In this document: one piece after another, positions 9,127 to 11,528 of the stretch
Layout of the letters: every line of letters starts with the position of its first letter
Numbering within the stretch: the stretch's first letter is position 1
DNA from: Oscillospiraceae bacterium
GTDB lineage: Bacteria; Bacillota; Clostridia; Oscillospirales; Oscillospiraceae
Direction: 5' to 3'
Assembly: GCA_017537165.1 (NCBI GenBank)
Contig: JAFYLI010000118.1
Span: 1 to 33,457 of the forward strand
DNA: 33,457 nucleotides
The notes under the pieces: model-generated
The model's input: the letters and a program-made list of their open reading frames with translations, nothing else
Databases searched by the model: none
Told to the model about the DNA's origin: nothing
Position numbers and translations under genes: made by a program

Positions 9127-11114
9127 TGAATAAAATCAAATGCCTGTCCCCCCACGTGGCGGACATGATTGCTGCCGGTGAGGTTGTTGAAAGACCCGGC
9201 TCGGTAGTAAAGGAACTTGTCGAAAACGCTCTCGACGCGGGCGCAAGCTCCATAACTGTTGAAATTCAGCGCGGAGGTATGAGTTATATCCGCGTCAGCG
9301 ATAACGGCTGCGGTATGTCGGCAGAGGATGCGCAGACGGCCTTCCTTCGCCATGCAACCAGCAAGCTGAGAGATGAATACGGCCTTGAATCCATTGCAAC
9401 CCTTGGCTTCCGAGGCGAGGCTCTTGCGGCCATTTCTGCCGTTTCCATGGTGGAACTGATGACCCGTGAGCAGGGCGCTGCGGAGGGAACCTCCGTGACG
9501 CTGGAGGCAGGTGCGGTGCAGGAAGTATCTCCAGTTGGCTGCCCCGAAGGTACCACCATCATTGTTCGCAGCTTGTTTTATAATACGCCCGCCCGCCTTA
9601 AATTCATGAAAAAGGATTCGGCAGAGGCCGCCAACGTGGGCAACGTGGTTATTCGCTGCGCCATGTCCCATCCCGAGGTGGCTATCCGCTTCATAAAAGA
9701 CGGTGCCGAAGAGTTCTCCACCCCCGGTGACGGAAATACCGAGAGCTGCATTTATTCCCTGCTTGGCAGGGATTATGCCCGCAATATGCTGCCCGTGGAT
9801 GGCAGCGGTGACGGCGGCAAGGTGCGAGGTTTTGTCTGCCCTCCCGCCAACGCGAAAGGTAACCGCAGCGGTCAGTTCTTCTTCGTGAACGGCCGATACA
9901 TAAAGTCTGCTCTGCTGCAGGCGGCGCTGGAGCAGGCGTATAAAAACGCTCTGTTCACGGGTCGTTTTCCTGCATGCGTACTGTATGTGGACGTTAAGCT
10001 CAACGAGGTGGATGTAAACGTCCATCCTGCCAAAACAGAGGTTAAATTCCTTAACGAACGTAAGGTTTTCGATACTGTCTATCTGGCGGTAAAGGCTGCC
10101 CTTGAGGGCGAAAACCGCGCACCAGAAATAAAGCTGAAAGAGGAACCTAAGGACGAAGCAGTGCCAACTCCTCAACGGACTATAATCCATACCGTAGGGG
10201 AGAAAAAGGACGAGAAGGACGATGTGGTATTCAAGCAGCCCACCGTTCGATATAATGCTCCGGAGCCTCGCAGACCGCTCATTACCCACCGAGTTCCGCT
10301 GCCTGAGATAAAATCTCCTCCCCACGAAACGGGTATACCCACCAAGCGTCAGGCAGTAGCCGCTGCCCGCCGTGAGGGTATTCTGCCCGAGGAGCCTAAG
10401 CCTGCTCCCATTCCCGCACCTGCACCCATTCCTGCTCCTGCGCCCATACCCGCGCCCAAGCAGGAAGTGAAGGAAATGCCTCCCGTTCAGCCTGCAGAGC
10501 AGGTGAAGTTTGAGCAGGTGGAGCTTGAGCCGATCAAGGAAAACGTAGTGCCCGCTTACAGAATAGTAGGCGAGAGCTTCAACGAGTTCATAATCGTGGA
10601 GTGCGACAATGAGCTGATTTTCATTGATAAGCATGCTGCCCATGAGCGTATGCTCTTCGATCGCCTTAAGAGCGAAAAATACGAGAATATGTCTCAGCTG
10701 CTGCTTGTTCCCGTAATAGCGGATATGGAGCGTGAGGCTAAGGCCCTGCTGCTGGATAATAAGGCTCTGCTGGATGAGATGGGCTTTGAAATCGAGGACT
10801 TCGGAGGAGCATCGCTGGCAATTCGCCGCCTGCCTGCCGACGTGGATATGGAGGATGCCTCGGCGCTGCTGGAGGAACTCTGCCACGACATTCGATACGG
10901 TGCCCGTCCGGGCAGCTTGGGTGTAAGAGATGAGCTGCTTGCTACGGTTGCCTGCAAGGCCGCCATCAAGGCGGGAAAATCATCGGATCCCCGCGAATGG
11001 AAACCCGTAGTTGATGCGGTAGTAGCGGGAGAAGTGCGCTATTGCCCCCACGGCAGACCCGTTACAATGCGGCTGGGAAAGAGCCAATTGGAGAAAAATT
11101 TCAAAAGAACCTGA
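9126..11114 (+). CDS. mutL: DNA mismatch repair protein MutL
   Basis: A 662-residue MutL, the ATPase and matchmaker of mismatch repair that links MutS to strand incision. The N-terminal GHKL ATPase motifs are ELVENALDAGA, DNGCGM and TLGFRGEAL. A linker of roughly 130 residues (about 335-465) is rich in Pro, Lys and Glu and contains three tandem PAPIPA repeats. The C-terminal dimerisation/endonuclease domain shows DKHAAHERMLFD (family DQHA-x2-E-x4-E, with Gln to Lys and the last Glu to Asp), ACKAAIKAG and CPHGRPV. These are the metal-site motifs of MutL proteins with intrinsic nickase activity, as in organisms without MutH. The ATG overlaps the stop codon of the alr-like gene. mutS is not in the window. 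Confidence 0.96.
   Translation: MNKIKCLSPHVADMIAAGEVVERPGSVVKELVENALDAGASSITVEIQRGGMSYIRVSDNGCGMSAEDAQTAFLRHATSKLRDEYGLESIATLGFRGEALAAISAVSMVELMTREQGAAEGTSVTLEAGAVQEVSPVGCPEGTTIIVRSLFYNTPARLKFMKKDSAEAANVGNVVIRCAMSHPEVAIRFIKDGAEEFSTPGDGNTESCIYSLLGRDYARNMLPVDGSGDGGKVRGFVCPPANAKGNRSGQFFFVNGRYIKSALLQAALEQAYKNALFTGRFPACVLYVDVKLNEVDVNVHPAKTEVKFLNERKVFDTVYLAVKAALEGENRAPEIKLKEEPKDEAVPTPQRTIIHTVGEKKDEKDDVVFKQPTVRYNAPEPRRPLITHRVPLPEIKSPPHETGIPTKRQAVAAARREGILPEEPKPAPIPAPAPIPAPAPIPAPKQEVKEMPPVQPAEQVKFEQVELEPIKENVVPAYRIVGESFNEFIIVECDNELIFIDKHAAHERMLFDRLKSEKYENMSQLLLVPVIADMEREAKALLLDNKALLDEMGFEIEDFGGASLAIRRLPADVDMEDASALLEELCHDIRYGARPGSLGVRDELLATVACKAAIKAGKSSDPREWKPVVDAVVAGEVRYCPHGRPVTMRLGKSQLEKNFKRT
10401..10454 (+). 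repeat. Three tandem 18-bp repeats in the MutL linker
   Basis: Three imperfect 18-bp units (10401-10418, 10419-10436, 10437-10454), each encoding PAPIPA, differ mainly at third codon positions. They form a proline-rich spacer between the ATPase and endonuclease domains, a likely site of length variation between strains. Confidence 0.85.
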
Positions 11115-11129
11115 AAAAATCGAAAAAAA

Positions 11130-11176
11130 GCATCGACAATATCTTGGCAGTACGCCTTGACATTGTCGGTGCTTTT
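11130..11176. terminator. Probable terminator of mutL
   Basis: GCATCGACAAT (11130-11140) pairs with ATTGTCGGTGC (11162-11172) with one G-T pair; the 21-nt loop can itself form GGC/GCC. TTTT follows on the plus strand and an A-run precedes it, so weak termination in both directions is possible. The T-run is short. Confidence 0.55.
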
Positions 11177-11207: not shown

Positions 11208-11234
11208 TGTCGAAAAATGTCGAATTGCGTCGAA
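11208..11234 (+). promoter_or_regulatory. Three tandem Spo0A boxes
   Basis: TGTCGAA (11208-11214), TGTCGAA (11218-11224) and CGTCGAA (11228-11234) lie in direct repeat with 3-bp spacers, giving an exact 10-bp period. The first two match the known Spo0A box TGTCGAA perfectly; the third has one mismatch. Spo0A~P dimers are known to bind tandem boxes in this arrangement. The array starts 94 bp and ends 60 bp upstream of the 77-aa gene. Whether it activates a downstream promoter (weak candidate TTGTAA at 11244 with TACCCT at 11268) or represses an upstream one (TTGACA at 11157 with TATCTG at 11181) cannot be decided by reading. Confidence 0.65.
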
Positions 11235-11294
11235 CGCTTTTTCTTGTAATTCCGAAAAGCTCTGTGCTACCCTCATGCCACAGGAGTGATAGAA

Positions 11295-11528
11295 ATGAAA
11301 ATAATCTACACGATAGTCGAAACAAGAGAGAAAGAAGCCGATTTCGGAGAATATGTGGGTTATGGTCTGCGCTGTGTCTGCGGCGCGGAAAGCGCCGAAA
11401 TGAAGAACGTATCTCCGCATAAAGAGAGCGTGCTAAGATTAGCCGAACTGCTGGAAAGGGAAGCGGTCGAGCCGATGCATCTCTTTGATGTGATATACGA
11501 TCTGCTGTCGGAAGGCTGCATCAGGTGA
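11295..11528 (+). CDS. Small conserved protein, DUF6514-like, function unknown
   Basis: A 77-residue soluble protein beginning MKIIYTIVETREKEADFG, with VGYGLRCVCGA in the middle and a helical, Leu/Glu-rich C-terminal half ending FDVIYDLLSEGCIR. From memory it resembles the clostridial DUF6514 family; the assignment is tentative and no function is known. The ATG at 11295 follows AGGAG with 8-nt spacing; an in-frame GTG at 11286 overlaps that Shine-Dalgarno. The gene is preceded by a triple Spo0A-box array, which suggests control at the onset of sporulation or in the transition phase. Its 3' end overlaps the convergent feoB end by 8 bp. Confidence 0.75.
   Translation: MKIIYTIVETREKEADFGEYVGYGLRCVCGAESAEMKNVSPHKESVLRLAELLEREAVEPMHLFDVIYDLLSEGCIR

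Follow-up and report, generated by a model that had tools for sequence, protein, structure and literature searches.

A ladder of three 0A boxes, TGTCGAA-AAA-TGTCGAA-TTG-CGTCGAA with a 10-bp period (positions 11208-11234, forward strand), precedes, at a distance of 60 bp, a DUF6514 gene of 77 codons' worth of protein (77 aa) in the 33,457-nucleotide stretch of DNA that was analysed (the window), which comes from a spore-forming, gut-type Oscillospiraceae bacterium. From sequence comparisons we consider it likely, with good confidence, that the ladder is a natural operator of Spo0A~P and that the DUF6514 gene is its direct target, probably activated. The DUF6514 protein very probably belongs to the spore-formation programme, since the phased site recurs before related genes in other species.

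The three directly oriented boxes with 3-bp spacers described in the initial annotation were found letter for letter at 11208-11234. The array carries the TGTCGAA core of 0A operators in two exact boxes and one 6/7 match, and it has their helical phasing, with spacers of exactly 3 bp, the length also preferred family-wide. The features around it are collected in Table 1. The intergenic region serves the DUF6514 gene alone, the neighbour beyond that gene, which is feoB-like, being convergent. mutL ends at 11114, and the hairpin behind it contains a TGTCG-like sequence in both arms; in the congener G538 one stem pair of this hairpin is altered on both sides and one G-T pair has become G-C. No box at up to one mismatch was found in the upstream region of the window genome's own spo0A, and the spoIIGA-like gene in the window had no tandem at up to three mismatches.

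Table 1. Features of the DUF6514 upstream region and gene, in positions of the window.
Feature	Position	Strand	Remarks
Hairpin and T-run 3' of mutL, probable terminator	11130-11176	+	Separates mutL from the DUF6514 promoter
0A box 1 (distal)	11208-11214	+	TGTCGAA; identical in congener G538
0A box 2	11218-11224	+	TGTCGAA; one 10-bp period from box 1; identical in G538
0A box 3 (proximal)	11228-11234	+	CGTCGAA, 6/7 match; TGTCGAA in G538, AGGCGAA in G539
Predicted weak -35, TTGTAA	11244-11249	+	9 bp after box 3; inferred from promoter comparisons
Predicted -10, TACCCT, with TG before it	11268-11273	+	33 bp after box 3; TAACCT in G538, TACAAT in G539
Shine-Dalgarno, AGGAG	11282-11286	+	From the sequence
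DUF6514 gene (ATG to stop)	11295-11528	+	77 aa; PF20124 match

Within the genus, five genomes were sampled and all have DUF6514. The upstream region of G538, a sister species, could be aligned with that of the window at 85% identity, and its ladder, TGTCGAA-TTG-TGTCGAA-TGC-TGTCGAA, keeps the 10-bp register with all three boxes perfect. Between the two genomes, 20 of 21 box positions are identical, against 1 of 6 spacer positions (Fisher p 4e-4); the sole box difference brings G538 nearer to the consensus. G539, a third species, has a weaker ladder (TGTCGAA-TTC-CGTCGAA-AGA-AGGCGAA). In all three ladder-bearing genomes, CGCTTTTnCTTG comes after the proximal box and a -10-like hexamer lies 32-33 bp from that box; the CTTG of the -35 region is common to them. 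The other two of the five are without a ladder: G148, in which no Spo0A_C domain was detected, and G072, even though spo0A is present there.

The family was identified as Oscillospiraceae by named relatives, among them Flavonifractor and Intestinimonas. In the family sample of 200 genomes, DUF6514 was present in 96. The upstream regions of 91 Oscillospiraceae DUF6514 genes were scanned on both strands with the reversed pattern as a control; a narrower DUF6514 alignment was used for the collection scan, the broad one being too diverse. Tandem boxes with a 3-bp spacer were found before 21 of the 91 genes at up to one mismatch (reversed control 0) and before 37 at up to two (reversed control 2). 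Other spacer lengths gave 0-2 genes at up to one mismatch and 0-5 at up to two, with the exception of the 13-bp spacer, corresponding to two helical turns (6 and 11 genes, respectively). The initial annotation had staked its proposal on conservation of the boxes upstream of orthologues, and both the boxes and their 10-bp phasing do recur across the Oscillospiraceae, not universally: over half of the 91 genes had no tandem at up to two mismatches. Outside the family, a tandem at up to two mismatches was found in 7 of 85 class-level DUF6514 genes, and single exact boxes in 17 (forward strand) and 25 (reverse strand), against reversed controls of 2 and 1. Because tandems are rare there and yet single exact boxes are enriched, Spo0A control of DUF6514 probably extends beyond the Oscillospiraceae in a weaker form.

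If the -10 element is placed at 11268-11273, transcription is predicted to start at about 11280. Relative to this start, box 1 falls at about -72 to -66 and the ladder as a whole extends from about -72 to about -46, still upstream of the -35. This -10 was assigned from its position and the congener sequences; the hexamer is poor and is not the best-scoring one downstream, a chance AATAAT scoring higher. An alternative -10, TGTAAT at 11245-11250, was rejected, as it has no -35 at a workable spacing. In the family and class together, the last clear box lay 31-33 or 40-43 bp from the best -10 in 23 of the 29 tandem-bearing genes, against a mean of 4.3-4.5 and a maximum of 13 in 2000 trials of the null; the p-value is optimistic, because the distance classes were picked after seeing the sequences, and the margin is large. 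By the blind score the window gene is not among the 23, its -10 being weak. Many promoters have one or two clear boxes and, one 10-bp step further on, a degenerate TGCGATN; the two distance classes are about one helical turn apart, as expected if a degenerate box fills the proximal position in the 40-43 group.

This geometry bears on the direction of control, for which the initial annotation had offered both an early sporulation effector and a repressed vegetative factor. Activation is favoured, since all three boxes come before the predicted -35 and the spacing between the last box and the -10 is constant across the family; for regulators that bind direct repeats, the rule is that sites upstream of the -35 mark activated genes and overlapping sites repressed ones, and the effect of Spo0A likewise depends on position (PMC4168254). 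The ladder could also be a Spo0A operator at which Spo0A~P acts as a repressor, DUF6514 then being a vegetative factor that would be shut off at sporulation. Spo0A is a dual regulator, and in a model of B. subtilis spo0A the net effect of occupied boxes can be repression even when they lie upstream of a start (PMC12090719). We nevertheless regard repression as unlikely, given the position of the boxes upstream of the predicted -35, their constant helical distance to the -10 in most promoters and the weakness of the window's predicted promoter. Under activation, Spo0A monomers would line up head to tail along the same face of the helix, immediately before a weak sigma-A-type promoter, and bound Spo0A~P together with RNA polymerase would turn on DUF6514 through the -35 TTGTAA and the -10 TACCCT. 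The switch would come when Spo0A~P rises, either during the transition state or as sporulation begins. The DUF6514 protein would then have a role in early sporulation, perhaps modulating Spo0A; alternatively, it may act with the small predicted membrane protein that is divergently encoded in many relatives. The occupancy of the ladder by Spo0A~P, activation as the direction of control and the early-sporulation role are what we infer.

The regulator that binds the ladder is, with high probability, Spo0A, because the same tandem lies before spo0A in relatives within the family, the recognition helix is intact and Spo0A of C. difficile binds TGTCGAA. Over the 200 family genomes, 75 exact tandems were found against 5 for the reversed-pattern controls; by coordinates, DUF6514 accounts for 12 of the 75 and spo0A for at least 12. 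When the neighbours of 30 exact tandems were translated, they comprised spo0A-like genes, DUF6514 and divergent gapA-like and sensor-kinase-like genes. The window genome's own Spo0A (G000:C89) has a Spo0A_C domain (E 2.4e-45) and aligns to the solved DNA-binding domain (1lq1 and 1fc3 chains), its recognition helix SRVERAIRHAIEVAW being unchanged and of the B. subtilis type. In C. difficile, Spo0A binds TGTCGAA, and mutation of G2, C4 or G5 weakens the binding (PMC3485338). DUF6514 and spo0A co-occur in the family (OR 5.8, p 5e-4) and in the class (OR 2.4, p 0.003), odds ratios that come from hand-made genome counts and are corrected for neither phylogeny nor completeness. Strict co-occurrence was ruled out by one family (f43), which keeps DUF6514 without a detected Spo0A. 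That family, like a few tandem-bearing genomes whose assemblies hold no spo0A, would fit binding of the boxes, in place of Spo0A, by a different response regulator that shares its recognition sequence. We consider such a regulator very improbable, as the same tandem is found upstream of spo0A itself at 12 or more sites in the family, TGTCGAA is the experimentally tested Spo0A core (PMC3485338) and several of the spo0A-less genomes are incomplete assemblies. The upstream regions of f43 were rejected as a clean negative control, there being only four, two of which carry a minus-strand box. With phased boxes at orthologues and the same tandem before spo0A in the family, the proposal that DUF6514 is an unrecognised member of the Spo0A regulon gains support.

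Chance expectation was calculated with Markov models of the window (orders 1-3, both strands), and it agrees with the earlier judgement that such an array is very unlikely to arise at random: about 3e-9 to 8e-9 exact triples and 6e-5 to 1.5e-4 exact doubles are expected per window. Exact TGTCGAA-N3-TGTCGAA occurs once in the whole 2.04-Mb genome, in the ladder upstream of DUF6514, and the reversed pattern had no exact match there. With two mismatches allowed, the reversed pattern outnumbers the true one in this genome (31 matches against 14), so that mismatched matches elsewhere in it carry no weight and the top site alone stands out. An artefact of chance or composition, in whose favour this lack of an excess at two mismatches could be cited, is refuted by the Markov expectation, by the keeping of the boxes in congeners while the spacers were substituted and by the family-wide recurrence of the 10-bp phasing, and we give it next to no probability.

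The window protein, called DUF6514-like in the initial annotation, matches Pfam PF20124 at 48 bits (E 1.5e-12), above the gathering cut-off of 23.9 bits. It is predicted to adopt a beta3-alpha2 fold (pLDDT 89.5), and a Flavonifractor relative a beta4-alpha2 fold (pLDDT 92). Foldseek and VIA-align gave no convincing structural relative of DUF6514, the best PDB match having a Z of 5.8 and a Foldseek E of 0.2. No match was obtained with the DUF6514 profile against PDB sequences or in a PHROGs search, and the NCBIfam matches, all far below cut-off, were disregarded. No mention of DUF6514 was found in the open-access literature searched.

The gene order spo0A-DUF6514-nrdR was found in three genomes (G053:C27, G198:C58 and G100:C66; loci L080, L078 and L047), with a gap of about 30 bp between spo0A and DUF6514 in G053 and G198; DUF6514 lies directly 3' of spo0A in one genus, and nrdR is downstream of DUF6514 in 12 loci. 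In 17 loci of the Oscillospiraceae, a small predicted membrane protein is encoded divergently beside DUF6514; in 12 loci of other families a different small hydrophobic protein stands there. Some of the shared divergent intergenic regions contain 0A boxes or tandems in both orientations. The divergent protein has about 85 aa, is hydrophobic, conserved and probably membrane-bound (L015, L018-L020, L022, L023, L025, L028, L030, L032, L040, L042, L043, L048, L052, L061 and L065; also L169, L171, L176, L178 and others), and matched no Pfam family.

Exact tandem 0A boxes also adjoin sensor-kinase-like genes, annotated by eye, at six loci from several Oscillospiraceae genera (L114, L122, L127, L133, L134 and L136), in most of them between the sensor-kinase-like gene and a divergent gapA-like gene. 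These sensor-kinase-like genes are candidates for a Spo0A-controlled orphan kinase. Long arrays of TGTCGANNNN, also with a 10-bp period, were observed in one Oscillospiraceae genus, with 35 and 26 units and 13 and 9 exact TGTCGAA (L110:78-437 in G095:C24 and L251:1177-1446 in G163:C56); seven array units are on the minus strand of L252/L111. The long arrays adjoin ORFs that look phage-like by eye, and they could possibly be a phage-borne sponge of Spo0A boxes. In the viral contigs L255 and L257, runs are 4-5 units long and include 3-4 exact boxes.

Early sporulation in clostridia is poorly mapped beyond a few model species, and spores govern the transmission of gut Oscillospiraceae. The conserved small protein DUF6514 occurs in about half of the genomes sampled from the family and in about 40% of those sampled from the class. 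As a probable direct target of Spo0A it makes a concrete candidate for a missing early-sporulation component, and the proposed link to Spo0A is a first functional handle on this domain. More tentatively, and with considerable doubt, DUF6514 may be a widespread Spo0A-controlled sporulation-initiation factor of Clostridia, a feedback modulator or the first Spo0A~P effector in lineages without the Bacillus phosphorelay, often encoded divergently from the small membrane protein predicted beside it and in some genomes placed right after spo0A.

Compared with the PF20124 family, the window protein shares the YG and V-x-P...D motifs but is shorter (77 aa), without one N-terminal strand and the cysteine of CESYG. 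The ladder has the TGTCGAA core, the repeated boxes and the promoter-adjacent position of the B. subtilis Spo0A~P operators (such as those of spoIIG, abrB and spo0A). It differs from them in consisting of three boxes at a 10-bp period, two of them with a perfect core, and in serving a DUF6514 gene, for which a search of 14 control genomes including B. subtilis gave no match. With the Spo0A targets of C. difficile, in which perfect boxes are predictive of Spo0A binding (PMC3485338), the ladder shares the core, while the organism and the genes differ.
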